A stretch of DNA of 64,000 nucleotides. Source: Spirometra erinaceieuropaei. Its lineage: Eukaryota; Platyhelminthes; Cestoda; Diphyllobothriidea; Diphyllobothriidae. Within the stretch, counting starts at the first letter, position 1; each line of letters opens with the position of its first letter. Position numbers and translations under genes: made by a program. The stretch spans positions 1,015,217 to 1,079,216 of the forward strand of contig CACRXP010000030.1 of NCBI GenBank assembly GCA_902702965.1, read 5' to 3'. This document shows positions 9,051-61,884 of this stretch, one piece after another. The notes below the pieces were generated by a model. It searched no databases, had not been told where the DNA came from, and saw only the letters and a program-made list of their open reading frames with translations.

Positions 9051-9500
9051 TCAAGTGAATAATTTCGGAAATTACTCTGTGCAAGACATGGAGTTGTCTC
9101 CGAAACATGACTTTTTAGGATAAGAACCGAAATTTAAATGAGCATTTGAGTCGAAGAAAATCGACTGCTGTGGAATGACCACGTAATGTCCATTCTACAA
9201 ACAAGAAGCACTACGGGTAGTGCGAAGTACATATCGAACGTATTATACCGTATTCCCGACATAGGTACTACCTAAAAGCATAGCCAGGTGTTTCGCCGAT
9301 ATTCACATTCCGGAGACTTAACTCTGTGTCCTGCACTGAGTAATTTCCGAAATTATTCACTTGATTATTCTCTGGAGTTCATATACCAGAAGCCGCATAG
9401 AGAACGCTGGGTGTCCCACTGAAGAGCCGAATCCCATGCAGGGGCAGAATATCGGAGAAACACGTATCTGGGCTTTTAGTTAGTACCTATGTCGTTTTGA
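9051..9500. mobile_element. Hammerhead repeat HR, copy 1 (inverted arrangement)
   Basis: Positions 9051-9364 begin TCAAGTGAATAATTTCGG and end with its reverse complement; the body matches the HR repeats at 12.4 and 28.7 kb. A short minus-strand hammerhead fragment (9274-9306, UAUCGGCGAAACACC) lies inside. A plus-strand hammerhead region (9410-9475) follows the right end, preceded by the HR leader GGAGTTCATATACCAGAAGCC. It looks like two rearranged, oppositely oriented pieces of the 351-bp unit. Confidence 0.75.
9410..9475 (+). ncRNA. Degenerate type I hammerhead ribozyme (H1)
   Basis: CCCA-CUGAAGA-GCCGA...UCGGA-GAAA-CACGUAUC-UGGGC. The core strings and cleavage triplet AUC are present, and helix I pairs CCCA with UGGG. 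The pair closing stem II next to the core is broken (G opposite A) and the inner stem II hairpin is shortened, so activity is doubtful. Confidence 0.65.
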
Positions 9501-10681: not shown

Positions 10682-10738
10682 TAGTATATATATATACCCC
10701 CTTCAACATCCCAAAAATAGATATATATATATATAATG
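10682..10738. repeat. TA-rich microsatellite pair
   Basis: Two TA runs around the sequence CCCCCTTCAACATCCCAAA, just before the SINE array. Confidence 0.8.
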
Positions 10739-11652
10739 TTAGGGGGCGCTCACCGATCGTTCATACGGAACTCACTCGTTCCGTTGTGCCTTATGGACTC
10801 TCTCTCGAACCCAACCAGCAGCCGCACAGCGGCGCATGATATATAAGCAGAATGGTATTGCCGACAAAGACAAGGGAGACTGGAATGGCCATTTCTGGCT
10901 TATTAGCCGTCGTCAGCCAGCCATACCCAGGCCCTAAGTGTGGAACACCCGAGCCTCGAACTCGCGACCTGTTGGTTTAGAAGTCAACGCCTCTACTCAC
11001 CGGGCCACGAGCCCGTTGCCTTGTCGGTTTTCGATCGGGAATATGCAATGCTGGGGAGCGCTCACCGATCGTTCCTACGGAACTCACTCGTTCCGTGGTG
11101 CCTTATGGACTCTCTCTCGAGCACAAACAGCAGCCGCACAGCGGCGCATGATATATAGGCTGAATGGTATTGCCGACAAAGACAAGGGAGACTGGAATGG
11201 CCATTTCTGGCTTATTAGCCGTCGTCAGCCAGCCATACCCAGGCCCTAAGTGTGGAACACCCGAGCCTCGAACTCGCGACCTGTTGGTTTAGAAGTCAAC
11301 GCCTCTACTCACCGGGCCACGAGCCCGTTGCCTTGTCGGTTTTCGATCGGGAATATGCAATGCTGGGGAGCGCTCACCGATCGTTCCTACGGAACTCACT
11401 CGTTCCGTGGTGCCTTATGGGCTCTCTCTCTCGAGCACAAACAGCAGCCGCACAGCGGCGCATGATATATAGGCTGAATGGTATTGCCGACAAAGACAAG
11501 GGAGACTGGAATGGCCATTTCTGGTTTATTAACCGTCGTCAGCCAGCCATACCCAAGCCCGAAGTGTGGAACACCCGAGCCTCGAACTCGCGACCTGTTG
11601 GTTTAGAAGTCAACGCCTCTACTCACCGGGCCACGAGCCCGTTGCCTTGTCG
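10739..11652 (-). repeat. Tandem array of SINE S1 (312-bp period, three units)
   Basis: GCTCACCGATCGTTC recurs at 10748, 11060 and 11372, an exact 312-bp spacing. Each unit contains the full S1 body and, on the minus strand, the A box (GTGAGTAGAGGCGTTGA, diverged) and B box GGTCGCGAGTTCGAGGC. The units are nearly identical, so amplification is recent. Short ORFs of about 70-160 residues repeated here are translations of SINE sequence and not genes. Confidence 0.9.
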
Positions 11653-11872
11653 CCCCCTAACATTGTATATTCCCGATCGAAAACCGACAAGGCAACGGGC
11701 TCGTGGCCCGGTGAGTAGAGGCGTTGACTTCTAAACCAACAGGTCGCGAGTTCGAGGCTCGGGTGTTCCACACTTCGGGCTTGGGTATGGCTGGCTGACG
11801 ACGGCTAATAAGCCAGAAATGGCCATTCCAGTCTCCCTTGTCTTTGTCGGCAATACCATTCTGCCTATATAT
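11653..11872 (+). mobile_element. Inverted SINE S1 copy ending the array
   Basis: At 11653 the array switches to CCCCCTAACATTGTATATTC and then runs as reverse complement of the preceding unit through CGGGCTCGTGGCCCGGTGAG, the B box and AAGCCAGAAATGGCCATTCC, to a TA run at 11866-11880. With the third unit it can form a near-perfect hairpin with arms of more than 100 bp. Confidence 0.88.
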
Positions 11873-12303
11873 ATATATAGTACAGGGCGTCTGGTTTGCA
11901 CCACCAGGCCTCTGACTCAGTACTACGTGAGGCATATTCATTTCGCCGATTCCACGCAGCGGCAGCCTGGCTCATTAGTGCGTTTTCTTGTATTTTCCAC
12001 GTGTCCTTGAGCGTAACCCCGGACGAAATTATGAAATCCATTTCGAGAACACCCCGTGACCAAATCGCTAGCTTCCTTAATTCTCAAATAATAACGAGGA
12101 TTAACCGAATTTAGGTTTGGCATTTAGAAGGTTTTCCTGGCAAATTTTTCATCCCAGTGGAATCTAGGACAACTGCTTGTACTCTAAAACCGACGCTAGA
12201 GAAGCAGAGAGTATTCACTCTTACATATCAATTTAGATGGGTGAGAACGAATTACACTCGTGTATGGTAAAGGTATTATACCGTACTCCCTACATAGATA
12301 CTT

Positions 12304-12390
12304 ACTAAAAGCCCAGACACGTGTTTCGCCGATATTCTGCCGCTGCGTGACACAGCTGCGAGGGGTTCGGCTCTTCAGTGGGACCCCAGC
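12304..12390 (-). ncRNA. Type I hammerhead ribozyme (H2), core intact
   Basis: Helix I GCUGGGG-U-CCCA pairs with UGGG-C-UUUUAGU (one mismatch, several G-U). The core is CUGAAGA (C3 U4 G5 A6 N7 G8 A9). Stem II is GCCGA/UCGGC enclosing a second hairpin GCUGUG-UCA-CGCAGC. GAAA follows, then helix III ACACGUGU, which is self-complementary, and the cleavage triplet GUC with C17 at 12316. Every invariant hammerhead position is present. Helix III is too short for a stable monomer but could form an eight-pair helix between two molecules, as in known dimeric hammerheads. Confidence 0.85.
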
Positions 12391-12654
12391 GTTCTCTAGC
12401 GGTTTCTGGTATATGAACTCCAGAGAATAGTCAGGTGAATAATTTCAGAAATTAATCAGTGCAGGACTTGGAGTTAAATCTCCGGGACATGACTTTCTAG
12501 GGTCAGAACCGAAATTCCAATGAACCTTTGCGTCGAAGACAATCAACTACTGGTGAATAACCACGTAATGCCCATTCTACAAGCGAGTAGTACTACGAGT
12601 AGTATGAATTCCATATGGCAAAGGTATTATACCGTACTGCTGACATAGATACTT

Positions 12655-12731
12655 GCTAAAAGCCCAGACACGTGTTTCGCCGATATTCTGCCGCTGAGTG
12701 ACACAGCTGCGAAGGGTTCGGCTCTTCAGTG
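12655..12731 (-). ncRNA. Type I hammerhead ribozyme (H3), core intact, helix I truncated
   Basis: The same core as H2: CUGAAGA, stem II GCCGA/UCGGC, GAAA, palindromic ACACGUGU, GUC cleavage site with C17 at 12667. Upstream of CUGAAGA the sequence is AUGAACA and not GGUCCCA, because an inverted HR segment joins here, so helix I keeps only about two pairs. Confidence 0.78.
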
Positions 12732-12830
12732 TTCATTTAAATTTCGGTTCTGACCCTAAAAAGTCATGTTCCGGAGATTTATCTCCAAGTCCTGCACTGA
12801 TTAATTTCTGAAATTATTCACCTGAACACT

Positions 12831-14609
12831 CGTGTATACTTGTCCACCTGACAATTAAGGAAACAACGAAAATGAATGGCATGAATGTGAAAAGAATATT
12901 CCATTTACCGTGATCTGAGCCCCTTCCCCATGTATCACGAAGTCCCTAAAAAATCTTTAAATAGCACATCTCCCAGAGTTCGCTAGTTGGTCCGCAGCGT
13001 GAATTTCTAAACGAAATACTAGTGACTGGAATAGGTTCAAAGTGAAATCGGTAGAAATCACAGCAGACGGGTAAGGGATGAAATGAAACGTACAGCGATA
13101 GCGTTCGTCTATTTCGAAACACTCGTGTGCCGTTACAGGGCATACCGACTGGGTAGAAAACAAGTCATTCTTTCCTTAACCTGTGACCTATAGGAGCTAG
13201 AGGATGAAACAAGTCCGTCCAAGGGTCATTTCCGGGCACATTTACTTCCAAGGTCACTGCTGCAAATCAACCGGCTGTCCAGCAACTTTTCAGCTCGGAA
13301 ACAGGTGACAATTCATTCAACTATCTGGGCATCACAGCTGCCATGACAACGTGAATAGGAGAACAGAGGGCGTTTTAGACCGCCAAACCACCTCAAAAGT
13401 TCTGCGAGGCACTCGGTTTCGCAGAAAACGCGAACGCATTCACTTACAGTCGCAATGACAGGACTCCTATCTCCTCGGCTCAACCCGCAGGACAACAACT
13501 TGTACGAGAACAGTAATCTTACTGGTTAGCACATTCGGATCCGCAAGGTCCCAGGTCTCGGTGTCTCCGAGAAGCTGCTGAAACTTCACGTGGCTTTTCT
13601 GTGATCTCGGTCCGAGCAGGAATAGGAGACAGGTGAAGCGTTGTCGTGCAAAACAGCCAAATATCGCGAGGCCTTGAAAGTCAGATTTGAAATGGTCCTC
13701 AGTGGTGCCCTCTGCGGACTTCGCGGTCGTTGGCTTCCTGTTCTCTTCACCGGACCTCTGTCGCCTGAGAGATCGGGAGGCCGTTGCGAGCAATGTATGA
13801 TCCACGCCGACTTCAATCAGGTACTGGAATCCGAATTCCATGCAACGCTAATGTCTCAACTACACGTACGCCTTAGCTCACCCGCCCTGGCTTTTGTCTT
13901 GAATGGCCTCCGGGCAGCAAAACTGAGGCGGAGAATGCAATTTTTTTGTCCAGACCCAGCCTATTTGCCAACCAACCCTCGCCGGAACAGTCTGATTGGT
14001 TGGGAGGTGCGCCCACCTGGTTGGCTGGGCCTCTGCGTGAACTCAACAGTGTGGATCTAGCCTAACCAATGCAGCAGAGGGTGGAGGGTGTAGTTCTAAA
14101 ACTGGGCGTTACAACGCCTACTGCGTCGTAGGTAATATCCGGTGTATGGACGGGGCATATCACTTAACTGCCGTCAAACCGCGTGCCAAACGTCAGGTTG
14201 GCTGGACTCAGTCAAGAATCCCATTTCGTGTTAAGCTGCGGGGAAATCGAGCGCGTGGCTTGTTGTGACAATTTCGGGAAGGATGGTGTCTCCTGCAGGA
14301 AGGCTTGTTTTCCCTGACGACTGCGCTCGTTGGAAAGAAGCATAATACGCACACAGATTCATAAGACGTCCTCGGAAGTGCATGAATGCTCTGCACAAAA
14401 CCTATGTGGCGTTGCTTAAGAGAGAGGCCTAGTCCAAAGTCACTGTCCAAATCCGGGCGATTACAATTTCCCTCACTGAGCTTTTTCTCACAAAGTCCGA
14501 CCATACGAATTACAAAAGAAGTCACTTGAGCTAAAGGAGTAAATTTCATCACGGGTTCTTATTTCTTCAGCTAGTGATCTTGCATACAACCTCCACCAGG
14601 CGTAATGTA
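12831..14609. other. Intron 3 stretch without recognised features
   Basis: I see no known repeat or domain. Overlapping ORFs on both strands at 13467-14060 are moderately GC-rich but contain no motif I recognise and no splice context. Confidence 0.5.
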
Positions 14610-15445
14610 CAGTAAGTGGGCAAACTAATGAAATCTCAGCAGAAATTCCGAAATGCGGTTTCATTTCGAAAAGATTAATAAGATAGGGTTGTAAAACCAA
14701 TCAGCTTGGAGCATAATTTTATAATAATTCAGTTACGTCAGGATGCCGGCTTTCGAATGAACTTCTTTACGGCTGCATGCAAAAACCGCACTCTGTAAAA
14801 AATAACTGCATAAGTAGCGTGAACTTTTCCCATTGATTTTCGATGCCCTTAAAAATTAAATTATATTTCATGGAAAACGTACATAAAAATATTCATACTT
14901 TCACTCATTTGGTATAAAATTACGTCTTCTTTCAATTTTATGCTCAACGGAAGAGTTTAATTTAGTTTTATAAAACCTTTCCAATTACCTAATAACTCTG
15001 AACCCGAACTCCTGTAACACTTGCATTCAGGGTTTCCAAACTATAAGCCGTATATTTTCCGCGTACGGAAAACCATAAATTTCTCTACGGTATTAAGAGG
15101 AAACCATATGGGGTTTATAAAATTAAGCAGTGTATTTGAGCCATATTGTTAACTTTACAAGCCACATTGGTAAATGCAGAGACATGACGTTTCATGAACG
15201 GCCATTTCACGGTGTTAAAAAAATCCCACAATTATAAACGTTTTTAAACCGAATTATACCCTTTCTTTGAGTATAAAATTGGATGAAGACGTAATTTTAT
15301 ACCGAATGAGCAAAAGAATGAATATTTTTATGCATGCTTTCGATGAAATATAATTGAATTTTTAAGGGCATCGAATATCAGTGAGAGAAATTCACGCTAC
15401 TTATGCAGTCATTTTGTACAGAGTGTGGTTATTGCATGCAGCCCG
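14610..15445. mobile_element. Palindromic element P1, right end truncated
   Basis: Starts TA-CAGTAAGTGGGCAAACTAAT and keeps most of the right arm up to GCATGCAGCCCGAAAGAAA near 15445, where the element breaks off before its right terminus. Arms pair through GATTTTCGATGCCC, TACGTCTTC and GCTACTTATG. Confidence 0.75.
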
Positions 15446-15715
15446 AAAGAAAAATGTGAACACTGCGTGTTTTGATGGGCATATCACCCCCTAAAAGTTC
15501 TGAACTCGTGTCTCTGTTGGCCATATTCTGGCAAATCGACGGAAACTATGGTCAGCTGGAGATCCCCAGACACCTATTCGGTAGGCGCAGCTAGTCTGGA
15601 CGGAACAACCGTGCCTTGTAGTCCAGGATAGACCAATCAACAAAGAGTCAGACGGCCTTCTGAGGGATCGGGAGGGTAAGGCGGGGGTCCGGCATGCATT
15701 CACACGGTCACCTAC

Positions 15716-16100
15716 CTGGTCCATACGCACGCACACTCGCAGCATTGGTACGAGGCCGCAGTGGGGCGCCGTCCTTGAGTTTAGCACTTGGGAACTGGCT
15801 TAGGTAGGTCATCATAGCCTTCTCGTCCACCCGCGGGTTGATCATCTCCTCGGGTCGAATGAGCTGGGGCACATCGAGCCACTGCTCAGCAGCGTTCATG
15901 GCCTCCTGGGCATTGCGCAGCTTCTGTTTGGGCTCCCAGTCACGCCAGTCCGGGCAGAGACCGGGTGCACAGGAGTCGACCAGGGCACCGATGGCGGTGC
16001 CGTCGTTCCAGTCCGTGGTGAAATTCTTCACTGGGCGATCCGCCAGCTTGGAGTTCAGCCAGGAGAGTAGACGCTGTTTGGGTGTGGGGCCTTGTCCACC
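15716..16100 (-). CDS. FLN: Filamin coding exon 3: CH2 domain
   Basis: Codons 159-286 plus one base. Acceptor ATCTCTCCAG; donor GTAGGTGA. The exon covers the whole CH2 domain: [71 protein letters not shown] and [14 protein letters not shown], followed by the linker GAPLRPRT and RAYGPG, which is the hallmark entry to the first filamin Ig repeat. Length and spacing agree with filamins generally. An apparent Met at the start of KNFTTDW is an internal GTG codon and not a translation start. Confidence 0.95.
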
Positions 16101-16234
16101 CTGGAGAGATTAAAGTGAGGCAGGTGAGGTAAGAAGGAGCAGTCTGTCCCAACACCCGAAAAGCCTCGTGTTTGATCTCGGTCTATGCAGCCGCCACAGT
16201 CACCGTCGCTGCTATCATGATCATCATGATCATG

Positions 16235-16667: not shown

Positions 16668-17055
16668 CTGAAAGACGGATAAAACGAATGACAGTTAGAC
16701 ATTATATGCGAATGACATGTTAGTAGAAAATGGAGTTGTCCGTAAAAACTAGCCGGTCAGCTGAGCATCAAATGAGTCTACGGCGTTATAACAAAAAGTA
16801 TTCCCTGCAAATAAGCCCTGCTTGGTGTAGCGTGAGACTTGAAGTGGAGTCAGGGCATGAGAAAGTTACTTCAGTGTAGTCGGTACCGCTAATGACCCTG
16901 ATTTACCCCACCCCGGCTTGGGTTCACTCCCAGACAGTCGTCGTGTCTTTGAGTGTTCATTCGTCGCGAGTGATTAATACCAACACAGCAGTTGATAAGC
17001 AGTGTTGACTTGTCCAAAATTTGTATTACAGTGAGATGGAATTGCCTGGTACATA

Positions 17056-18052
17056 CAGTGAGCGACCGATCTGATGAAATGTTGGCTGAAATGCTGAAAT
17101 GTGTTTTCGATTAGGAAGGATTACTTGGTCGCGGTTGTAATACTGATTATCTTGCGGCATACTCTTATAACATTTAGGACTCGGCAGGATATCGGCTTTT
17201 AATTGCACTTCTTTTCATTCTTCTGTAGAAAGTGTGTTCGGTAAAAAATGACTACTTAAGTAGCATGCATTTTTCCCATTGATTTTCGATGGTCTTGCAA
17301 ATTCAAATATATTTTATAGAAAACATGCACAAAAATATGCTTTCTTTTAGTCAGTCAATAGAGAATCACGTCTTCTTTATATTTTATACTTAAGGACGGA
17401 GTATAATTGGGTTTTAAAAATGTTTTCTAATTGCCGAATAATTTGGAGCCTGATTATTCGTTGCATTAGGGCTTGGTGATTTCAGTCTACAAGGTGCATT
17501 CGTTCCGCGTAAAGAAAATCCCATATTTTTCTATGCCATTAAAGAGATATCATACAGGGTCCATAAAATTTTGCAATGGATGCGGACCATGTTGTACATT
17601 TCATGAGGAGTAGTGGTAAACGGCCGGGTACGATGCTGTGTGAATGGACGTTTTGCGGTCTTAAAAAGTCTTGTAATTAAAGACTTTTTTAAAACCCAAT
17701 TATACTCCGTCCTTAAGTATAAAATATAAAGAAGACGTGATTCTCGATTGATTGACTAAAAGAAAGCATATTTTTGTACATGTTTTCTATAAAATATATT
17801 TGAATTTACAAGACCATCGAAAACCAATGTGAACAACGCATGCTACCTAGGCAGTCATTCTTTTCACCGAGTAGGATTTCTACAGGAGATTGAAAAGAAG
17901 TGCATTTAAAAGCCGACATCCTGCTGAGTCCGAAATATTATAAGATTATGCCGCAAGATAATCAGTATCACGACCGCGACCAAGTAATCCTTCCTAATCG
18001 AAAACGCATTTCAAAATTTCAGGCAATATTTCATCAGATCGGTCACTCACTG
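17056..18052. mobile_element. Palindromic element P2, copy 2 (complete)
   Basis: 997 bp, flanked by TA on both sides. Termini CAGTGAGCGACCGATCTGAT and the matching GATCGGTCACTCACTG. The two arms of about 450 bp are reverse complements almost throughout (GGAAGGATTACTTGGTCGCG, CTTATAACATTT, GATTTTCGATGGTCTTG, AGAATCACGTCTTCTTTATA). No coding capacity. Located in filamin intron 1. Confidence 0.87.
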
Positions 18053-18574
18053 TACCTCACCCTTATCCACACATCCGCCATGTTACAATGGCGAACCAGC
18101 GTAAAGACAACCGTACAGACATGTCTGCGCGAGCCGCACACGTGCTCGCCTTAAATTCGGGACGAACCGGAATTGAATAAACCGGATCGAACAGAACTGC
18201 GATAGGGGTCATGCCAACCTGACGAATTTTACGGTCAGTTAGATACTGATTATATAATGAGGCTACGCCGTTCTAGACGATGTCCGAGGGCACAGTCTTC
18301 CGGTGACAGGAATTGTTGACAGATGCGGATGAAAGTGCAACCATGGGAACGTAGTTTTGTGTCGCTCGTCTCATATGCTAGTCACTTGTACGACATGTTT
18401 ACGGATAACTGTGTATATGGGCTCAAGCACTGATGCAGAAAGAGAGCATAGGGTGATATGAAGGTGTCTTCAACTGTCTTCATCATCAAGGCATGTTCTG
18501 TCGTCGACAGATGCGGAGATCGGCCAACGAAAATTTCAGGTCATCCGTCATCACGGTCGATTGTTATTATTTTG

Positions 18575-19287: not shown

Positions 19288-19445
19288 AAATTTCTAAATT
19301 GGAGCATCTACCAGAAAACACACGGGGAATGCTGGGGGACTCACTGACGAGCCGAATCCCTCGCAGCTGCGCCATGCAGCGGCAAAACATCGGCGAAACA
19401 CGCGTGTATGGGCTTTTGGCTAGTACCTGTGCTGTTACTATGGCA
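19288..19445 (+). mobile_element. Hammerhead repeat HR, copy 4 (head region only)
   Basis: Leader GGAGCATCTACCAGAAAACA, hammerhead core, then GGGCTTTTGGCTAGTACCTG. The HR body that normally follows is missing. Confidence 0.72.
19331..19420 (+). ncRNA. Type I hammerhead ribozyme (H5), core intact
   Basis: Helix I CUCA/UGGG (one G-U), core CUGACGA, stem II GCCGA/UCGGC with inner hairpin GCUGCG-CCA-UGCAGC, GAAA, then CACGCGUGUA with A17 at 19408. A at position 17 is permitted (UH rule) though usually slower than C. The N7 base and inner-stem bases differ from H2 while pairing is kept. Confidence 0.78.
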
Positions 19446-21919: not shown

Positions 21920-23333
21920 AGAAGTATGCTCGCCTAATTGCCCTTTGAGTTTGGTGTCTCTAAGATTGCGTTAAAACACGCGCCATCTATCAAGAGACGT
22001 AAGAGTATTGACGTTTCAAGCACTGAACTATGTCATAAACTGGAACAGTTAACTGTAGAAGGGCGTAACCTGCTAGAAACGATCGTGTGTCGTAACCTTT
22101 CGATAAATAATTAACCTGAAAAGTGTATTAATTTTTAGATGCGCCTGAAAGTCACGTCAAGCTCAAAATGCCCGCGTCGATTTTTCATTGCGGACCACAC
22201 TGACATCAGTCCGCATGAAAGGTCTTCTTCGAAACACGGCTTGGTAAAATGCCTGAATTGACATGAGATCGTATTTCATGCTTACTCATCGTACAAGTAA
22301 ATAAAAGTAAGTTACACTTTGAATTAATTTTCCTAAATTTTTATGTCAAAAGACGCCAAACCCCAGTAAAAAATATCATCTGAAAATCCTAAATGTGTGT
22401 GTCTAACTGCGTGTGATCCACCTGTAAACCCGATAACAACTGTTCACTTATGTTTAAACTTCTTGTTTGTGAATGACAAGTTATAAAAGATGGCCTTCGA
22501 ATACGGGCCCGCACTTTGGTCTGACTATTCATGTCTGACTGATATCTTGCATTTATGTGCAAAGTTGCCACTTCAATATTCGCATACTGGCTTCCTACTC
22601 ATTGTTTATTCGTACTACTATATGGCGCCATTGGTTGCCAAAGGCAACGCGCTTTTGAAGGACGCCAAGAAGCGCGCTAACTGGATCGCACAAATATCGG
22701 CGAACACGAAGGTCACCCCTCGGGGCGATTATTGGTGTTCGAGTGTCAGCAGAAAATGCTGCTTTCTTGAGGAGAGTATTTATCTCATCTACAGCCTCAA
22801 TTATTCTAAAATAAAAGCGCATGTCCTCTTTATCTCCATACATGATTACTCCACAATTTCCGGACGGGTAAGCAGATCTCGACGCAGCCCAAGCTTTACA
22901 TGTTACATGCCCGACAGACCACTGCTTTGCCATTCATTCGGGCCAGTCTCCATTGCCGAAAACACGTTCGACACCAAAAGTAGGCAACGCCTGTAACAGG
23001 CGTCTCTGGTGGCAGACTTTTGTGACCTTCAAAGAAATTTGCGGCATCTAGGTCGAGAAGAAGCATACAAACCCCGAACAGTTGTGTTATTTTGTCCGTA
23101 GTCTCTCTTAAACCACTTGGCTGGTCACTGCAGGTCAGAACTTCTTGAGTGCAGCCTCCCTTGTCTACCCTTAGATACTGTTTTCCTGGTGGCCAACTTT
23201 TCGGCCCATTTTTCAGACAACAGGGACTAATGAGGAAAGATAAACTCAAGTACTGGCGAGGACTTAACATCAAACGAGGGAGATGTCATGCACTGTGGAC
23301 GGTATTAATTTCACAGAAAGCCTGCCATGATTA
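21920..23333. other. Intron 1 stretch without recognised features
   Basis: No repeat family identified. ORFs on both strands at 22490-23273 show no motif I recognise. Confidence 0.5.
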
Positions 23334-24256
23334 CAGTAGGTGGACATACTCATGATATGTCAACCAAAATTCCGAAATGCGTTTTCGACTCGAAAGGATT
23401 AATTATGTAGGTTTGTAAAACTAATCGGTGCGCAAAATAGTTCTATCTTATTCCAGTTACCTCAGAATGCCGGTTTTCGAACAAATTTCTTTTTGGCTGC
23501 ATGCAATAACCACACTCTGTTAAAAATGACTACATAAATAACATGAGCTTTTCTCATTGATTTTCGATGCCCCTAAAAGTCCGATTATATTTCATGAAAA
23601 ACATACATAAAAATATTCATTCTTCCGCTCATTCGGCAGAAAATTACGTCTTCTTCCGACCTCATAATCGAAGGAAAGGTGTAAATCGGTTTTCAAAAAC
23701 TTTTCCAAGTCCCGAATAGTTTTGAAACCGCCCAACCGTTACACTTGGATTCAGGGGTTCCAAACTACAAGCCGTATCTTTCCGCGTACGGAAAACCACA
23801 CATTTCTCTGCGGTATTAAAGGGGGACCATAAAGGATTCATAAAATTTAACAGTGGAGTTTATCCATATTGTTTACTTTACAAGCCACATTGGTAAATGC
23901 AAAGATAAGATGATTTATGAGCGGGCATTTCTTGGTATTTAAAAGTCCCACACTCAGAAACTTTTTAAAAGCGAATTATGTCCCGCATGTTTTCCATGAA
24001 ATATAATTGGACTTTTAGGGGCATTTAAATCAATGAAAAAAATTCATGCTACTTATGTAGTCATTTTTTACAGAGTGTAGATTTTACATGCAACCAAAAA
24101 GAAGTTTATTCGAAAACCGACATCCTTAGGTTATTGAATTATCATAGAATTATGCTGCATGACAATTTATTTAAAAATCCTACTTGATTTATATTTTCGA
24201 AACGAAAACGGATTTCGGGATTTCGGTTGCCATTTCATGAATTAGCCCACCTACTT
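23334..24256. mobile_element. Palindromic element P1, copy 4
   Basis: Starts TA-CAGTAGGTGGACATACTCAT; ends TGAATTAGCCCACCTACTT followed by TA. The arms match the P1 consensus (GCGTTTTCGACTCGAAAGGA, GAAAATTACGTCTTCTTCC, GATTTTCGATGCCCC) with an internal deletion in the right arm. Confidence 0.82.
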
Positions 24257-24370
24257 TACAAGGGCCATAAAGAGCCTTCTAATTATGCAGCTAGTTGGCA
24301 GAATCCTAGAATAAAGTCGCAGGTAAAGAAGAGGAGACGTTCACCGGGGGGGAGGGTTTATTAGAGGTCT

Positions 24371-24931: not shown

Positions 24932-25790
24932 TCACCACTTCGTCGGGGGGGAGGTGATTGAGCCACTGACGAATGGTCGGTTTGGCGGTTCTTGTTCTTC
25001 CTCACCGATTAAACTCGTCGTCGGGTTGTCTCCGTATGGCCTTCTTAAGTCCGGTGTGGCTGTCTGGTCCTGATCTCTACGATTGTGATGACGTAGGACT
25101 TTGTAAGCTGTAGGAAGGTCCAGATGCCTGTTGATAGAATAGGCATCGGAGGACCACGCCTCGAGAGTTAGCCGTTCGGCTTTTGTGTTGTCCCGGCCTA
25201 AGATAGTAGCTCGCTGGAGATCAAAAGTCTGCCCAGTTTCTCCAACGTGTGTTGCTAATTGAGAGTTGGGGTTTAAGCTCCGAGTAGCCGATTTGTGGTC
25301 TTGTAGGCGAGTCTGTAATTTCCGCGCGGTTTCTCCCACATAATTACAATCGCCCTCATTGTAATTTATTTTGTAGATAACTGCTGAGGTTTCGGCGGGT
25401 GGCAATGGGTCCTTAGGTTGCATCAGGCGGCGTCGAATTGTCGCTTGTGGTCGGTGGGCCAGGCCTACTCTGGCCGCGGAGATGACTGATGGTCCCGATT
25501 GTCCCGCGCCGTAACCGTCCCCCGTTAAGAAAGTTCGTAAAGTCGAACAGGGGGGAGGCAAATCAGTGTGGCGGTTGACAGAGCAGTCGGTGGATATCCA
25601 GGCTTCTTGCACCTGCTTTATTTGATCATTGCCCCGGCCCACAATCTCAATGGCGCCAAAGTTGAAGATGTGTCGCGTTTGCGCGGCATGGGTTGCTATC
25701 TCCGACTTTGGATCGCACCCTCGCACGGCCAACCCATGTTCGTGCATTCGCGTTTGCAGCCGTCGGCCGGCTATGCACAGGAATTTCTAA
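24932..25790 (-). CDS. Penelope-like ORF with one and a half GIY-YIG domains
   Basis: About 271-285 open codons. The first part (RRLQTRMHEHGLAV, ATHAAQTRHIFNFGAIEIVG, VQEAWISTDCSVNRH) is the C-terminal half of a GIY-YIG nuclease. A second, complete nuclease follows in frame: AVIYKINYNEGDCNYVGET, RKLQTRLQDHKSA, QLATHVGETGQTFDLQ, ERLTLEAWSSDAYSINRH, with GIY-like VIY, YVG, the catalytic Arg and the Glu of LEAW. The open frame across the junction is unusual; there is no reverse transcriptase. Probably a by-product of nested insertion and not a functional gene. Confidence 0.75.
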
Positions 25791-25830: not shown

Positions 25831-26801
25831 AGACCTCTAATAGACCCCTTCCGCCGAACACCTTCTCTTCTTTTGATATGCCACCTGGGAATCGCATTTT
25901 CACTACTATGCAGTCTCAGTTAGCTAAGGAAGGCCTTCTTCAGGTGGTCGAAAACGGTTGTCTTTGCTCTGTAAGGAATACACAAGGGCTCCCCGCTTTA
26001 TCAGAAATGTGCACATAGAGGAGGAGCTCAGTCCAAATAGGGGGACAAAGGAGAAAGATTTTGATGTTGCGACTCAGTCCGTCTGCAGCGACGGTCGGAC
26101 AGTTTATAAGGGGCGGAGTTTAAATTTGGTTAAAAATTAGCGACTGTTGAGATTAAACGACCCACATGTCAATATCCGAATGCTTTGGATTGAAAGCTGC
26201 CTAAAAACCGGCGGTCCTAGGAGTTACTATTATCTAGCTGAAATCGAGCCTTCGATGGTACCTCAACAGAGGGAGAAGTTGGAGGGGTAGAATAAAGGCT
26301 TCATTGGCAACTCTTCGAGAACAGTCCGCCCATCTCTTCATCGAACTTAGCGACAACTTCCAACAATGGCCACTTTAGGCCGGTCCAACAAAAGACCCTG
26401 ACATACCTAATTGGAAGGCGTATAAACATAAGCCTAACTGATATCATTTCCTGAGGAGAATAATTTGAAATCTATCGAACAATGGATAGCATATTCAACA
26501 CGACTCGATGTTGGTTATTGGGGCGTAGACACAATAAAACTCCAGAAACGTTGGAAAATCGATAACTGACAGTCGGTCGCTCATTGGCTATCCAGTGAAA
26601 TCTCGCATTCCTCGAGGATACGAGTGAAGCAGATTGCTTAAGCAGTCCATATTTTCCACTCTTTGAGGCGCCCATAATATTAGTTACTCCTCTGAGAAAA
26701 AATAAATCAAGGGCTCATTTTGCTGGAAATTATATTTCCCCATATACAACTGCTCAGAAAATTGACATACATTTGCAAACGAATTCCAGATTTTAAACAT
26801 A

Positions 26802-27794
26802 CAGTGAGTGACCTATCTCATGAAATGTTGGCTGAAATTGTGAAATGCGTTTTCGATTAGGAAGGATTACTTGGTCGCGGTTGTAATACTGATTAGCTCG
26901 TGGCATACTCTTATAACATTTCGGACTCGGCAGGATGTTGGCTTTTAAATGCACTTCTTCTCAATCTCCTGTAGAAAGCGTGCTCGGTAAAAAATGACTA
27001 CTTAAGTAGCATGCATTTTTCTCATTGATTTTCGATGGTCTTGGAAATTCAAATATATTTTATAGACACCACAAACAAAAATACGCTTTCTTTTAGTCAT
27101 TCAATAGAGAATCACTTCTTCTTTATATTTTATACTTAAGGAAGAATTATAATTGGGTCTAAAAAAGTTTCTAATTATGAGACTTTTAAGACCGCGATAT
27201 GTCCATTCACATATCATCGTACCTGGCCGTTTACCACTGCTCCTCATGAAATGTGCAACATGGTCCGCATCCATTGCAACATTTTATGGACCCTGTATGA
27301 TATGTCTTTAATGAAATAGAAAAATATGGGACGTTCTTTGCGCGGAACGCATGCACCTTGTAGAGTGTAATCACTAAGCGCTAATGCAACGAATGATCAG
27401 ACTCCAAATTTTTCGGCAATTGGAAAACTTTTTTAAAACCTTTTTATACTCCTTCCTTAAGTATAAAATATAAAGAAGACGTGATTCTCTATTGATTGAC
27501 TAAAAGAAAGCATATTTTTGTTTGTGGTTTCTATAAAATATATTTGAATTTCCAAGATCATCGAAAATCAATGGGAAAAATGCACGCTACTTAAGTAGTC
27601 ATTTTTTACCAAGCACACCTTCTACAGGAGATTGAAAAGAAGTGCATTTAAAAGCCGACATCCTCCCGAGTCGGAAATCTTATAACAGTATGCCTTAAAA
27701 TAATCAGTATTACAACCGCGACCAAGTAATCCTTCATAAACGAAAACGAATTTCAGAATTTCAGCCAACATTTCATGAGATAGGTCACGCACTG
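26802..27794. mobile_element. Palindromic element P2, copy 3 (complete)
   Basis: 993 bp, flanked by TA. Termini CAGTGAGTGACCTATCTCAT and GAGATAGGTCACGCACTG; the arms are reverse complements along about 450 bp. Very similar to the 17-kb copy. No ORF of substance. Confidence 0.87.
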
Positions 27795-28305
27795 TAGAAT
27801 ACATTGCGCCTCAAACAGTCGACAATAATAAAGTTTACTGGTCCAAATGTAAAATGCTTGGCGATCTCGAAGGAAGGGGTTTGAATCCACAGCGGACACG
27901 GCAAATCTGGCTGAACTAAAAACACGCCTTTAACTGTCGTGGGTCCAAAACCTGTCGAGATCGCCGACTGTTTCTTAATTGGAAAAATAAACATCTGTTT
28001 TTGTTGACTGTTTAAGACGCAATGTATCCTGTGTTTAAAAGATCTCAAAGTTTTTAGAACAGACGTTCCCCAAAACGAGGGTTTCTCTGCCCCTTTCCAG
28101 AAAGACGAACTACTGGTTTCAAGAGTCGGCCATATGGCGAAAGTTTAAGTACTGCCTAAGCATTGTCGCACCAGTTTTGATCGGAAATATTAACCAGAGT
28201 GGCCTGACCCGCGGATCAATAGCAGAGCTTCAGACTTAATGCACAATGCCTGAGAAGCTCGGATTCGAGTCCTCGGTTATCCAAAAGGCTGAATTGGATT
28301 TAACC

Positions 28306-28504: not shown

Positions 28505-28862
28505 ACTTCTGAAATTAGTCACTTGATTATTCTCTAGAGTTCATATACCAGAAACCGCATAAAGAACTCTGGGGGACCCACTGAGGAACCGAACACCTCG
28601 CAGCTGTGTCACTCAGCAAAACACGTGTCTGGGTTTTTAGCTAGTACCTGTCTGGCGTACGGTCTACCCTTATCATACGGATTCCACACTACTTGTAGTG
28701 TCACTTGTTTGTAAAATGGGCATTATGTGGTTATTCCACAGTAGTTGATCTTCTTCGACTCGAATGTTCATTGAAATTTTGGGTCTGACACTTAAAGTCA
28801 TGTCTTGGGGTCTTAACTCCATGTCCTGTATTGAATAATTTCTGAAATTATTCGCTTGATAT
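28505..28862 (+). mobile_element. Hammerhead repeat HR, copy 3 (one full unit)
   Basis: Begins with the last bases of a preceding unit (GAAATTAGTCACTTGATT), then leader CTCTAGAGTTCATATACCAG, a damaged hammerhead, and the complete body to AATTTCTGAAATTATTCGCT. Unit length is about 335 bp, consistent with the 351-bp unit minus a 15-base loss in the ribozyme. Confidence 0.8.
28568..28640 (+). ncRNA. Broken hammerhead ribozyme (H4)
   Basis: CCCA-CUGAGGA and the 3' part AAAACACGUGUC-UGGG remain, but the 3' strand of stem II (GGCAGAAUAUCGGCG in other copies) is deleted, leaving AAAA where GAAA should be. Not expected to cleave. Confidence 0.7.
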
Positions 28863-29098
28863 ATATTCATATATAAAATGTTAATATGACGGCATATGAA
28901 ATGATCAGGGACGCTGTCCACACTACTGAATGGGTAAGTGATCTCAAATAATGGGTCACTACTGAAAACTCAATTAGCGATTTCGCTCTGCGATTCACGT
29001 CAGAGTTAAGGAGGATAGAGATTTTAGATGCACTACCTGAAAATAGAAGGAAGGTAAAATAAAGTCGAGCAAATTTGATCCAAGCAACTCATTCTTAC

Positions 29099-29459
29099 CA
29101 ATATTAACCAGTCGTAGGCCCTCGGATTCCTCGAGAAAACGCAGAGTCATTGTGACATTTTCAAGCTTCTGAGTGCGAAAGCTCGGCTTCTTGTTGACAT
29201 GTCGAAATTTCTGTCCCGACAGGGACTCAACAAGTTCGATTAGTCGTAGCCCGTCGGCCAGATCGAACTGTAGGTCATCCACGGAGGTGTGCTTCTCCTT
29301 CAGATGTTCATTGGCCCAACGCGTGAAAGTGTTCTTCTGAATCAACTTCCACTCCGCGTCCTCGGCCATCTCACGTTCCACCATCGGCACCTCCTCTTCC
29401 TCCTCATCGACGTAACCGTCGCCAGGGTCGGCATACTGGAAGTCGTTGTTTGCGTACAT
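29099..29459 (-). CDS. FLN: Filamin coding exon 1: N-terminus and most of CH1
   Basis: Codons 1-120 plus one base. The protein starts MYANNDFQYAD, has an acidic run of five Glu near residues 19-23, then enters CH1 with DAEWKLIQKNTFTRWANEHL (residues 34-53), the classic actin-binding start of filamins, and DLADGLRLIELVE. It ends at RLVNI plus the first base of Asp. The donor GTAAGAAT follows at 29098. Just upstream of the ATG the minus strand reads CTCCCACCTTTTAG, a good acceptor, so this exon probably begins at 29469 with only about ten untranslated bases and a separate 5' untranslated exon lies further right. The start is chosen because it is the only in-frame Met before the conserved CH1 start that leaves the usual short filamin leader. 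Confidence 0.95.
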
Positions 29460-29476
29460 TTTGAATTACCTAAAAG
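29460..29476 (-). promoter_or_regulatory. Splice acceptor just upstream of the filamin start codon
   Basis: On the minus strand a pyrimidine-rich tract ends in CACCTTTTAG and is followed by GTAATTCAAA and then the ATG. It fits a 3' splice site placing the ATG ten bases into an exon, which implies an upstream non-coding first exon and an unseen promoter to the right. Confidence 0.55.
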
Positions 29477-30938: not shown

Positions 30939-31818
30939 CAGTCAGTGACCGATCTTATGAATTGTCATTTGTACTAGGAAGGGTTCCTAAAGTAGGGTTG
31001 TAATATAGATTTTCGTGCAATCTGAAGCCACTACCGTCATGCTAGGATACGAGCCTTTGAATGTAACTTTTTCGCCGCCTGCAGAATCCACTTAGGTAGC
31101 GTTGTTTTCCTCTTTTGATTTTCGATGTCCTTATATGTACAAATATATTTTGCAGTAAAAAGGCACAAAATAGGCTATTCGCAGCTTTTTTGGTAGCAAA
31201 GCACTTTCTCAATTTTATGGTCAAAGAAATAGCATCGTTAATTTTAAAAATGTCTGCAATCATGAGACTTTTGAAGACCATGAAATGTACACCTCTATAG
31301 CATCATATATATCGGCTTATTAATGTTCCATCTGCAGCAGATTTTATGGGTACTATATGATAACTTCTTGATGACACAGAGGTACGCGTGATTTTTACTG
31401 GTGAGAAGTACAGTTTCCAGACTGTAAACACCAAATGCAAATGCGACGGCAGATCTGATTCAAAGTTATTCGAGGGCGCCTTCTTTCAATAAAAATTCTG
31501 CAGTGGACATGATTTGCTACCAGTTGAGTAAAGAAAGTATATTTTTGAGTATGTCTTTTATAAAATCTGTCTGAATTTTTAAGGGTACTGGAAACAAATC
31601 AAATAGTTTAGTGCTCAATAAGTAGTCGTTTTCGTAGCCGAGTATGGTTTTCGCAGATGACCGAGAAGAAAAGCGTTAAAAAGTCAGAACTTTGGTGTTG
31701 TCGAAATATCCTACGATTACGCTACATGACAACCAATATACCAAGCCCATTTAAATGAGCCTTTCTATTTTAAAATGTACTACAGAATTTCAGTAAATAT
31801 TTCGCGAGATTGGTAATA
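30939..31818. mobile_element. Palindromic element P2, diverged copy
   Basis: Starts TA-CAGTCAGTGACCGATCTTAT; internal GATTTTCGATGTCCTTATA and terminal ATTTCGCGAGATTGGTAATA support a P2-like palindrome. Its right end coincides with the left end of the next element at a shared TACAGTA. Confidence 0.65.
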
Positions 31819-31820
31819 TA

Positions 31821-32846
31821 CAGTAGATTGGCTAACTCGCGCAATGTCACCCAAAATTCCGAAATGCGTTTTCGTTTCGAAAAGATTAATTAAGTAGGGT
31901 TGTGAAACTAATCAGTCTACAAAATAATTCTATAATAATTCTATAATAATTCTATAATTCTATAGTAATTCTATAATATTTCAGTTACTTCAGGAGGTCG
32001 GCTTTCGAATGAACTTCCTTCCGGCTGCATGCAGAATAAAACGTTCTGTAAAAATGACTATTTACGTAGCATGAATTTTTCTCATTGATTTTGGATGTCC
32101 CTAAAAGTCCAGTTGTATTTCATGGAAAACAGGCATAAAAATATTCATTTTTTGCTCATTCAATAGACAATGACATCTAATTTTATACTCGAAGGAAAGA
32201 TATAATTCGGTTTTCAAAAACTTTTCCAATTTCCAAATGATTTTGAACCCACTCTACCGTAACACTTGGATTCAGGGTTACAATACTACAATCCATGTAT
32301 TTTCCGCGTACGAAAAACCACCCAGTTCTCTATGGTACTGAGGGAAGACCATATAGAGTTCATACCATTTGGCAGTGAATTTGATCCATATTGTTAACTT
32401 TACAAGCCACATTGATAAATGCAGAGACATGACATTTTATGAACGGCCATTTCACGGTATTTAAAAGTTCCACAGTAAGAAACTTTTTGAAAACCGAATT
32501 ATGTACCTCTCTTCGATTATAAAATTAGAAGACGTAATTATCTACCAATTGGGCGAAAGAATAAATATTTTTATGCATGTTTTCCATGAAATATAATTGT
32601 ACTTTTAGGGGCGTCGAAAATCAATGAGAAAAATGCATGCTACGTAAATAGTCATTTTTACAGAGCGTTTTATTCTGCATGCAGCCGGAAGGAAGTTCAT
32701 TCGAAAGTCGGCATCCTGCGGTAACTGAAATATTGTAGAATTAGTTTGCAGGCTGACTTGTTTTACAACCCTACTTAGGTAATCTTTTCGAACCGAAAAC
32801 GCACTTCGGAATTTCGGTTGACATTTCATAAGTTAGCCCACCTACT
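31821..32846. mobile_element. Palindromic element P1, copy 5
   Basis: Starts TA-CAGTAGATTGGCTAACTC and ends TTCATAAGTTAGCCCACCTAC. The arms follow the P1 consensus. A local ATTCTATAATA microsatellite expansion (31923-31980) lies in the left arm, where other copies have the motif once. Confidence 0.82.
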
Positions 32847-32869
32847 CAATGTTCTCGTGTACGTATGCG

Positions 32870-39911: not shown

Positions 39912-40079
39912 GACCTGGGTGGGATTCGAACCCAAGACAGCAAGGAAAAGGCCCCACCAGGAGCCGTGAATTTAATCACATTTGGGTCAAGTTAACCACC
40001 CAGCCTACTACAAAGAATGGAATCCACCAGTTCTGATAAAGAAAACACTGCCAAACAGGATTTTTAAGCAATCAATCTG
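39912..40079 (-). mobile_element. SINE S2, left member of an inverted pair
   Basis: The minus strand has the tRNA-like 3' end GGGTTCGAATCCCACCCAGG, then the body. The body tail (GAATGGAATCCACCAGTTCT, TTTTTAAGCAATCAATC) is reverse-complementary to 41107-41200. Confidence 0.78.
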
Positions 40080-41030
40080 CAGTAGGTGGGCTAACCCATG
40101 AAATGTCAACCGAAATTCCGAAATGCGTCTTTGTTGCGGAGAGATTATTTAAGAAGGGTTGTAAAACTAATCATCCTGCAACATAATTCTATAATAATTA
40201 AATCACCTCAGGATGCCGGATTTCCAAAAACTTTACTCAAATTACTTATGTAGCATGCATTTTTCTCATGGATTTTCGATGTCCTTACAATTTAATTATA
40301 TTCCAAAAAACATACATACAAATATTCGTTCTCCTGCTCATTCAGTAGACAATTACGTCCTCTTCTAAATTATACTCAAAGAAAGAGTAATATTCGGTTT
40401 TCAAAAACCTTTTTAATTCCCGAATAATTTTGAACCCAACCTGCCGTTACACTTGCATTCAGGGTTCACAAACTACAGACCGTATATTTCGCGTACGGAA
40501 AACCATACATTTCTCTACGGCATTTAGAGGAGACCATAAGAGGTTCATAAAATTATAAAGTGGATTTGAGCCATATTGTTAACTCTACAATCCACATTGG
40601 TAAATGTAGAGACATGACGTTTTGTGAGCGGCCATTTCATGGTATTAAAAAATCCCATAATTACAAACTTTTTGAAACGGAATTATACCCTTCCTTCGAG
40701 CATAAAATCGGAAGACGTAAATGTCTACCGAATGAGCAAAAGAATGGATATTTTTATGTATGTTTTCCATGAAATATAATTGGAATATTAGGGGCATCAA
40801 AAATCAATGAGAAAAATTCATGCTAATTAAGTAGTCGCTTTTTACAGAGTGTGGTTTTTGCATGCGGCCGGAAAGAAGTTCGTTCAAAGGCCAGCATCTC
40901 GAGGCAACTGAATTATTATTGAAGTATGCTGTAAGATGATCAGTTTTACAACCCCATTTAATTAATCTTTTCGAAACGAAAACGCATTTCGGAATTTCGG
41001 TTGACATTTCATGAGTTAGCCCACCTACTG
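40080..41030. mobile_element. Palindromic element P1, copy 6, nested in SINE S2
   Basis: 951 bp, complete: CAGTAGGTGGGCTAACCCAT at the left, ATGAGTTAGCCCACCTACTG at the right. The flanks are ..CAATCAATC-TG and TA-GAATCAACCAG. The uninterrupted version of the same site (CAATCAATCTAGAATCGACC) survives as reverse complement at 41112-41131, which shows insertion at TA with duplication of TA (the left copy is now TG). Confidence 0.9.
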
Positions 41031-41375
41031 TAGAATCAACCAGATGACTACCACACTCAGGTAATTCAAAATCTGTCAAAACATTTACGAATTACGTGAG
41101 CGTTGTATTCATCTGGTCGATTCTAGATTGATTGCCTAAAAATCCTGCTTTACCAGGATTTTCTTTATCAGAACTGGTGGATTCCATTCGTTGCAGTAGG
41201 TTGGATGGGGCAACTTGACCCAACTGTGATTAAACTCACGGCTCACAAGTGGCTGGAGTGTTGGTTGCACCAAAGCCTTCCCCTTGAGGCCGTGGGTTCG
41301 AATCCCACCATGGTCGTCGAGTTTTTTTACTGTTAGATCAAATTGCCTGATTTAAAATCTGCCGGAACACCTACC
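41031..41375 (+). mobile_element. SINE S2, right member of the inverted pair
   Basis: Contains the tail segment, then CACAAGTGGCTGGAGTGTTG, GGCCGTGGGTTCGAATCCCA (B box), CCATGGTCGTCGAGTTTTT. Reverse complement of the left member over the tail. Confidence 0.78.
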
Positions 41376-41989: not shown

Positions 41990-43350
41990 TCAAATATGGT
42001 TATGTAGCTCCATCTGAAGTGAACAAACCTCAGTCACCTGTAATAGGGGACCGGTGGTAATAGGGGATCTTACGGGTGGGGCCGGGGAACGCACAGGCGA
42101 CGAGGTCAAGTAATTATATGAAAAAAAAGTTATTGGGAATGCGCGATTGTACTTTGGGTGGTTGATAAATAATTGTCCTAACCTCTAATCCTAGTCCCTT
42201 ACCCTACCCCCCAACTCTAACCCCTAACGCTAACCCCTAAATCTAACCCCTAACCCCGACCCCAATAGTATTGTGTCCAGCAGGTGGAACTACATAACCA
42301 CATCTTATCGGGGATCGCACGGGCGAGGAAGTCAAGCAGTTGTATAAAAGAGAAAAGCTATTGGGTTTGCGCGGTTGTACTTTGAGTGATTTCTGAATAG
42401 CAGTTCTAACCCCTGATCTGTAATCCCAACCCCTAAGTCCAACTTCTAACCATAACCCTCAACCCTAACCCCTAACCATAACTCCTAACGCTAACCCCTA
42501 ACCCTAAACCGTAACATCCTAACACTAACCCTTAACCGCGGCCCTTAACCCTAGACCTGAAACATCCAACGCGAAAGTTAGAAGGAGACTACAGGCCAAA
42601 AGTCAAGAAGCACCACCGACATTGAACCAGAAAAGGTAGACACGGCAACAAAGAAACAAGTTCGCCAACAGAACACACACCGCAACGCACAGCAACACCA
42701 TGCCATCGTAATCACACCAACTCAAAATAATTAAGTAGATCAGCAGTGTCGTGTCCATCAGGTGGGGCTACACAGCCACATCTTGCCGAAGTGTGCCTTT
42801 AGGTGGGCCCTTGGGGTCGATGGGCTATGCCTAAATCTGATGGACTATAACAGTTGAGAAACCACCCTCGAGGCTCTGCAGACTTCGTGTTGCTGCTCTT
42901 TTGGCCGTCGCCTGTTCGTTCGACGCTTGTTTTGCTCGATAAAGTAGCTTGGCCCACTGAACATCTGTCAAGGGACAGAGGCAGCGAAGGCAGGTCGGCC
43001 TCCAACCCTGAGGACCGAGAGAATCTTTCAATCTGCTGGCAGCCTTTGGTAAGATGTGGCTATGTAGCCCCACCTGATGGACACAATACTGTTGGGGTCG
43101 GGATTAGGGGTTAGGGTTGGGGGGGGGGTAGGGTAAGGGACTAGGTTTGGAGGTTAGGGCACCTTTTTCTCAACCATCCAAAGTACAACCGCGCATTCCC
43201 AATAGCTTTTCTTTTGCGTATAATTACTTGACCTCGTCGCGTGTGCGTTCCCCGGTCCCACCTGTAAAATGCCCCATTACCATCGGTCCCGTATTACAGG
43301 TGGCTGAGGTTTGTTCGCTTCAGGTGGGGCTACATAACCAACTCTGACCG
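41990..43350. mobile_element. Telomere-like repeat element T with long inverted ends
   Basis: The left end (GGTTATGTAGCTCCATCTG, GGGGAACGCACAGGCGACG, GGTCAAGTAATTATATG, TATTGGGAATGCGCGATTG) reappears inverted at 43163-43350. Inside, degenerate CCCTAA-type arrays (42178-42262 and 42406-42560) face a TTAGGG-type array (43085-43160), and a second inverted pair (42746-42792 / 43035-43082, GTCCATCAGGTGGGGCTACA) brackets a unique core. A second copy of the left flank sits at 42270-42410. Confidence 0.8.
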
Positions 43351-43412
43351 TAATTGGACTTGGCGCAAAAGCTTCTCCCCAAATCCTTTGCTCTAGAATT
43401 ATATGGAATCCA

Positions 43413-43785
43413 ATGGTAGGGGGCGCTCACCGATCGTTCATACGGAACTCACTCGTTCCGTTGTGCCTTAAGGGCTCTCTCTCGAGCCCAATCAGCAGCC
43501 GCACAGCGGCGCATGATATATAGGCAACGAAACGAGTGAGTTCCGTATGAACGATCGGTGAGCGCCCCCTAACATTGTATATTCCCGATCGAAAACCGAC
43601 AGGGCAACGGGCTCGTGACCCGGTGAGTAGGGGCGTTGACTTCTAAACCAACAGGTCGCGAGTTCGAGGCTCGGGTGTTCCACACTTCGGGCTTGGGTAT
43701 GGCTGGCTGACGACGGCTAATAAGCCAGAAATTGCCATTCCAGTCTCCCTTGTCTTTGTCGGTAATACCATTTCTGCTTATATGG
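43413..43785. mobile_element. Head-to-head SINE S1 palindrome
   Basis: A minus-strand S1 tail (GGGGGCGCTCACCGATCGTT) at 43413-43525 meets a plus-oriented copy (ACGATCGGTGAGCGCCCCCT) at 43526-43785 with intact B box GGTCGCGAGTTCGAGGC. The outer tails are reverse complements. Confidence 0.82.
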
Positions 43786-49989: not shown

Positions 49990-49999
49990 TACATGGTAA

Positions 50000-52125: not shown

Positions 52126-52129
52126 TCTT

Positions 52130-61880: not shown

Positions 61881-61884
61881 TTGC

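Follow-up and report, generated by a model that had tools for sequence, protein, structure and literature searches.

Animal non-LTR retrozymes are the closest described relatives of the element analysed here. In the portion of their description drawn on (Cervera and de la Pena, 2020; PMC7229834), they are non-coding tandem units of 170–400 nt with a GC content below 50%, each bearing one type I hammerhead and arranged as dimers to multimers. Target duplications, when present, exceed 4 bp, and the host genomes also house Penelope elements. Such retrozymes are further characterized by the absence of an LTR, a primer binding site, and a polypurine tract, and by self-cleaving unit RNAs in linear and circular form. 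The same account names Penelope as a strong candidate for the mover of animal retrozymes, citing type I hammerheads, tandem occurrence, and coexistence. Penelope insertions themselves carry an inverted partial terminal repeat, 8–10-bp duplications, and an optional 31-bp tail (PMC3846280, in part), and a purified Penelope protein, which favours AT-rich DNA, cleaves the two target strands and extends them from internal sites located downstream of the Penelope hammerhead (PMC11167929, in part).

The window, as the entire 64-kb stretch of DNA under analysis is called here, holds at positions 12263–12825 what is probably a decayed insertion of such an animal non-LTR retrozyme. The two sister families to which this and related copies belong, A and B, are new in sequence, although elements of this kind are already on record (PMC7229834). 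The remark in the initial annotation that the sequence family may be undescribed can therefore be upheld for the sequences. Both families share with the described elements the non-coding tandem units, the size and GC range, the single type I hammerhead per unit, and the arrangement as dimers to multimers. Family B and the window locus also share the duplications longer than 4 bp, and Penelope elements are likewise present in this genome.

The insertion at 12263–12825 and its hammerheads

The insertion, 563 bp long and read on the minus strand, is one single element that begins with an inverted partial unit and continues through a ribozyme core and one unit of 351 nt to a second ribozyme. It is larger than the extent of 12304–12731 first given for it. 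The left copy of the target duplication, ATACACGAGTGT, lies at 12826–12837 (minus strand). Next to it, an inverted arm at 12731–12825 (plus strand) holds unit positions 143–237 reversed, with a 95% match to the unit and its outer end at start site 2 (see below), and meets the upstream hammerhead core at 12667–12731 (minus strand) in a head-to-head junction. There follow, all on the minus strand, the complete, non-coding family A unit at 12317–12667 (351 nt here, 352 in most copies), the complete downstream type I hammerhead at 12310–12384, and a terminal partial unit at 12263–12316 (positions 1–54), which stops at unit position 54, at start site 1. The right copy of ATACACGAGTGT occupies 12254–12265 (minus strand). 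This exact 12-mer is present within the window at those two places alone; three letters of the right copy also match the unit, and the target duplication amounts to 9–12 bp. The surrounding 2.3 kb (window 11874–14171) have an inverted counterpart of 94.6% identity on this contig, at a distance of 66 kb (locus L005), and the insertion is therefore older than this local duplication.

Both minus-strand hammerhead cores, CTGAAGA at 12729 and 12378 with a five-pair stem II, GAAA, and GTC, were recovered, as were the predicted cleavage positions, 12667 and 12316, with a spacing of exactly 351 nt, just as initially annotated. That both ribozymes are intact, as had also been claimed, is true of the downstream one and not of the upstream one. 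Downstream, stem I comprises four pairs (CCCA/UGGG), and the Rfam type I model (RF00163) gives 12310–12384 a score of 23.9 bits (E = 0.0053 in a search of 1.4 kb). The upstream core starts 2 nt past the inversion junction and so lacks the 5′ strand of stem I; in its place AACA faces UGGG, with two pairs at most. For want of this strand, Rfam does not report the upstream hammerhead even at E 10. Since the direct repeat is the end of one insertion and the upstream ribozyme is damaged, 12263–12825 is not a working two-ribozyme cassette, and the release of a 351-nt RNA across both ribozymes, as foreseen in the initial annotation, is unlikely from this locus alone.

A match to the type I model, which had been suggested as a check, thus exists for the downstream copy and is lacking for the upstream one. 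Nothing in the 64-kb window comes at or above the gathering score of 34, the downstream copy included, and two related loci elsewhere in the genome exceed it: L002, at 34.5 bits, and L001, at 42.3 bits, whose ribozyme-bearing piece of 155 nt shares 93.5% identity with family A. Taken with the downstream match and the many exact ribozyme copies in the genome (see below), these scores show that the cores did not arise by chance. When the downstream hammerhead was aligned with 46 relatives, 93.5% of the helix cells of the 47 paired, against 24–37% in slid controls. Covariation was dropped as a line of support, as the helices of these 47 show no excess over shuffles, the copies being too alike; conservation and Rfam carry the case. 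Stem III is palindromic in both families, reading ACACGUGU in A and ACACGCGUGU in B. According to the classes of PMC7229834 (in part), family A resembles the axolotl type, which works best as a dimer and has a weak palindromic helix III, and family B resembles the type with a two-pair helix III. Folded in circular form, the B unit is stronger than its shuffles (z −3.2) and the A unit is not (z −0.9).

Two sister families in the window and the genome

The family A unit measures 352 bp and that of family B 346 bp, and the two are 73% identical over the whole unit. Both are non-coding, with GC contents of 0.44 and 0.47; their longest stop-to-stop stretches, of 70–75 aa, bear out the earlier statement that the unit has no ORF. 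Where three other loci of this organization had been counted in the window, four were found, two A-like and two B-like. The A-like pair consists of older relatives: one at 9051–9493, with inverted arms, has its left outer end at unit position 237, and the other, at 28507–28859 (plus strand), has its right end at the same position. On the B side are an older fragment with a hammerhead at 19296–19443 (plus strand; core 19344) and a family B copy at 61693–61888 (plus strand; core 61774), the end of which lies at unit position 51, within start site 1.

Across the genome, a 33-nt stretch spanning the cut site has 557 exact occurrences, 247 of them forward and 310 reverse (0 for the reversed control), with long arrays bearing it on contigs C14 and C8. 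The 351-nt unit as query gave at least 125 matches from 38 scored of 2539 candidate sites, among them head-to-tail A arrays with exactly 352-bp spacing and up to five complete units. A search for family B, entered from the window copy with its core at 61774, gave at least 43 matches from 40 scored of 2119 candidates, arranged as 346-bp tandem units. In IMG/VR, 0 matches were found to a 22-nt pattern designed on family A alone. Multimeric and full-length copies elsewhere in the genome, as anticipated in the initial annotation, are thus present, and its description of the element as retrozyme-like holds on account of the type I hammerheads, the non-coding 346–352-bp units, the head-to-tail arrays, the target duplications, and the hundreds of exact ribozyme matches.

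Within two arrays, units lie 0–0.6% apart (11 pairs); copies at different loci differ by 2.3% on average (517 pairs, including some at 0). The sampled copies extend across the ribozyme cut site, a crossing that is partly built into the queries. Near-identical array units and cut-site crossing are together as expected from copying round a circle, for which an uncut multimeric transcript would serve equally well as template. A different view of the arrays would be that A and B are satellite DNA, spread by unequal crossing-over with the ribozymes as mere passengers; the long C14 and C8 arrays lend themselves to it, the C8 units having diverged to 82–91% identity with A and some C14 units being altered in the catalytic core. 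Outside those arrays, however, the sampled copies are mostly dispersed insertions of about 200–800 bp with fixed start points, and family B has target duplications, all of which renders the satellite explanation hardly credible. The reading retained here is that of a retrozyme dispersed by insertion.

The window holds several further features. A repeat with 312–314-bp tandem spacing and inverted copies lies at 10729–11872, 1834–2256, 43412–43772, and 46007–46530, and several family A insertions, by eye, adjoin sequence similar to it, along with a (TA)n stretch. Another family, of inverted-pair repeats that are possibly foldback elements, is found at 14608–15226, 17054–18054, 23332–24258, 26800–27796, 31817–32849, 40078–41032, and 49064–49991; in one example, the arms at 26800–27166 and 27430–27796 have 91% complementarity. 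Two frames resembling calponin-homology exons, at 15711–16109 and 28998–29465 (both minus strand; Pfam PF00307 at 69.9 and 54.7 bits), perhaps belong to one cytoskeletal gene with introns full of repeats. Degenerate near-CCCTAA repeats with a 13-bp period at 42150–42530 resemble an interstitial telomere-type tract. ARAGORN (bacterial code) placed a tRNA-Asn(att) at 47776–47858 (minus strand) and a tRNA-Ser(act) at 48082–48164 (plus strand), of which Rfam backs only the latter, at 37.3 bits.

Paired start sites and inverted arms

Insertion ends were tallied at 60 A loci and 30 B loci (L033–L062). The A loci comprised L003–L032, picked by similarity to the unit, and L063–L092, the 30 occurrences of the 33-mer that come first when the contigs are taken in order. 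Eleven duplicate or overlapping loci (L005, L017, L032, L038, L039, L054, L057–L059, L075, and L092) were left out, as were the array loci L076–L084 and L091, pieces shorter than 120 nt (L072), pieces lying 30 nt or less from the edge of their locus, and matches below 88% identity; L001 and L002 also stand outside the tally. Retained were 69 insertions, 45 of A and 24 of B, among which hidden duplicates are possible. The query unit was circular, so its own ends set no limit on the matches. Outer ends were classed either as start-type, where copying must have begun, or as the opposite, 5′-type.

Start-type ends concentrate at two points: 83 of 92 fall either some 50 nt past the ribozyme cut (site 1) or some 230–240 nt past it (site 2). 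In family A (n = 53), 37 lie at 45–60 and 10 at 233–242, making 47 within the two intervals, with six elsewhere (25, 66, 96, 281, 283, and 350). The corresponding counts in family B (n = 39) are 22 at 50–61 and 14 at 224–238, or 36 within the intervals, with three elsewhere (124, 174, and 346). The intervals were set after the data were seen; both families nevertheless agree. The 5′-type ends scatter, with two of 33 in A and none of eight in B inside the same intervals; five ends were unreadable (N). Among the nine off-site start-type ends, those at 96 and 124 abut N, and those at 346 and 350 abut an older copy. Two family A insertions, L065 and L068, have their start-type ends at 283 and 281, and a third site of less frequent use may account for them. 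On visual inspection, a short hairpin appears to precede three of the four start sites by a few nucleotides.

The two sites are used as a pair. Two start-type ends are readable in 23 insertions, of which 21 combine site 1 with site 2 and none uses the same site at both ends; the exceptions are L042 (50 and 174) and L046 (52, with the other end beside an older copy). In a permutation test, 0 of 200,000 permutations attained 21 mixed pairs out of 21. Insertions with a single start end (n = 46) begin at site 1 in 36 cases, at site 2 in three, and at neither in seven. These ends bear directly on whether a LINE-type enzyme moves the retrozyme, copying one strand by target-primed reverse transcription and generating the inverted arms via twin priming. 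Target duplications of 5–12 bp, variable 5′ truncation, and inverted copies are LINE traits too, as is well established (see also PMC2837659). Twin priming, however, predicts a variable start for the second arm, whereas a fixed second site was observed in 21 of 23, and the insertions show no 3′ tail belonging to the element itself, whether of poly(A) or of a simple repeat. A LINE origin is accordingly considered unlikely, and priming of both target strands by Penelope enzymes is preferred.

The junctions between arms speak to how the inversion arose. All 24 of them (those of the 23 insertions plus L016) are head-to-head, and 17 overlap by at least 1 nt. For Penelope itself, inverted arms have been proposed to result from fold-back, with the cDNA end priming its own copying (PMC3846280, in part). 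Such a mechanism could draw on the palindrome that lies beside site 2 in both families, within which the junctions of L045 and L047 fall. Yet only four of the 24 junctions link unit positions no more than 30 nt apart and are compatible with fold-back; the other 20 join positions more than 30 nt apart, and the end of the second arm at the other start site would be left unexplained. Fold-back was rejected as the general cause of the inverted arms and is judged highly improbable as the source of these insertions. Under the preferred reading, two-strand priming by Penelope enzymes, both arms would derive from the same template. Rare variants are shared between arms of the same insertion at 15 of 1647 positions in A, against 40 of 14147 between insertions (3.2×), and at 22 of 2963 in B, against 40 of 41380 (7.7×); eight of these 22 come from one old insertion, L044, and arm-to-arm conversion could also yield sharing. 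Because rare variants are common to both arms, a single RNA, or RNAs that were alike, probably served as template for the two, barring conversion between the arms.

Target duplications of at least 5 bp accompany 10 of 23 family B insertions, compared to 3.0% with shuffled flanks. In family A, the 17 of 41 found are not above the 28% expected by chance where scorable, since A sits in (TA)n: its flanks are 78% AT, mostly (TA)n, against 57% for B.

Penelope-like elements, a proposed route, and comparison with known systems

Both the window and the genome are rich in Penelope-like fragments, with reverse transcriptase (RT) matches drawn from 150 scored of 4009 candidates. The reference copy L093 matches RVT_1 at 38.9 bits, and two GIY-YIG matches in the window, at 24935–25786 (20.6 bits) and 54485–54928 (20.3 bits), stay below the cut-off of 22.6. 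A fragment at 50856–52220 (minus strand) has RT and GIY-YIG-type frames followed by a minimal-hammerhead-like motif, and is related to L093 at the protein level and across its 3′ region, with the 3′ motif aligned. It lies outside the insertion at 12263–12825 and is a candidate for the type of mobiliser. The L093-type minimal hammerhead, situated downstream of the endonuclease, reads CTGATGA ... GAAA ACACGTGT TC, with a stem I of 4–5 pairs and a stem II of about two; its core is intact in all five further copies fetched, and L093 itself has one change. Head-to-head Penelope pairs no more than 100 bp apart occur at at least six of 40 scored places (contigs C111, C1271, C4, C179, C206, and C1021), L093 as query masking their true outer ends. 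An accumulation of Penelope ends at query positions 336–356, about 15–35 nt past the hammerhead cut, proved an artefact, as the query itself stops there. In seven copies compared, the end lies at about +19 after the cut (L093 and L098), about +38 (the window copy), or about +44 (L094–L096), with L097 still alike at +44 near the end of the fetched stretch; retrozyme site 1 lies at about +49, and the start sites published for Penelope are at distances that differ from those of the retrozyme. The A and B units have nothing in common with L093 beyond short words, which leaves the L093 type no more than a candidate for the helper.

Two further observations concern these elements. Many RT matches to window 51741–52220 span only residues ~84–159 of the query, and a 97-aa open frame recurs, which gives the impression that Penelope has multiplied in a truncated form. 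Other minimal-hammerhead-like motifs, differing in sequence from that of L093 (CTGANGA ... GAAAC ... GTC), were noted in L025 at 1348 (plus strand) and 3055 (minus strand), in L049 at 2269 (minus strand), and in L069 at 1954 and L074 at 1363 (both plus strand); they possibly stem from further Penelope families.

Judged from their structure, the retrozyme insertions look Penelope-made, because the inverted-arm and duplication plan of Penelope insertions and the two-strand extension downstream of a hammerhead both match. The joint explanation that we consider likely is that Penelope enzymes prime both target strands on one retrozyme RNA, probably a circle. Tandem units would be transcribed, and the resulting RNA would be cleaved to unit length by its hammerheads, which in family A may act as dimers, given that stem III is a short palindrome. 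A host ligase would close the unit RNAs into circles, and a Penelope-type enzyme would cut both target strands about 5–12 bp apart. One target 3′ end would then prime copying at site 1, about 50 nt past the ribozyme cut, and the second strand, if primed, would start at site 2, about 180 nt further along the same RNA. Copying may continue beyond the cut site and take in more than one unit, thereby giving rise to head-to-tail units, and the two cDNA ends would finally join, mostly via short microhomology. We lean slightly towards a more specific form, in which the RNA, probably circular, carries two RT start elements, of which a Penelope-type enzyme, perhaps a dimer, would use one for each cut strand, extending both on the same RNA from different points. 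If true, the insertion scars would preserve the trace of retrotransposition that is dual-primed and in part rolling-circle, and would indicate by what machinery animal retrozymes are mobilised. On the question of the mover, the insertions are informative through their fixed starts, two-strand priming, obligate site pairing, and arm-shared variants, and the approach offers a way to test other retrozymes and Penelope inverted repeats from genome sequence alone.

Compared to known hammerhead-bearing repeats, the satellite repeats of newt and axolotl have units of about 330–350 bp, near A and B in size and different in sequence. The Sm-alpha and Sj-alpha repeats of schistosomes are likewise about 330–350 bp long. 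The initial annotation's likening of the unit to Sm-alpha stands for the plan alone, a hammerhead within an animal-genome repeat. Schistosome repeats have been described as containing tRNA sequence (PMC4918200, in part), unlike the A and B units, in both of which a simple scan for A- and B-box-like tRNA motifs found none. Plant LTR retrozymes are, as are A and B, non-coding, hammerhead-delimited, and copied through RNA, but have type III hammerheads, LTRs, 600–1000-bp bodies, and 4-bp duplications (PMC4918200, in part), compared to type I hammerheads and duplications of 5–12 bp here. From the described animal non-LTR retrozymes, A and B differ in being sequence families of their own and in their fixed paired start sites and inverted arms, of which the available part of PMC7229834 contains no description; the titles and abstracts searched, covering few subscription papers, likewise held no prior report of fixed paired start sites in retrozymes.

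Penelope-like elements differ in having a minimal hammerhead, where A and B have ordinary stems I and II, and two start sites 30–40 bp apart (PMC11167929, in part), where A and B have an obligate pair about 180 nt apart. An RT and GIY-YIG frame between hammerhead repeats is absent from A and B, whose units abut without a coding frame. The duplications are of about 5–12 bp in A and B insertions versus the published 8–10 bp for Penelope (PMC3846280, in part). Common to both are the head-to-head inverted arm and partial tandems (PMC11167929; PMC3846280; both in part) and copying from a fixed place downstream of the hammerhead, and family A also shares the AT-rich targets of Penelope (PMC11167929, in part).
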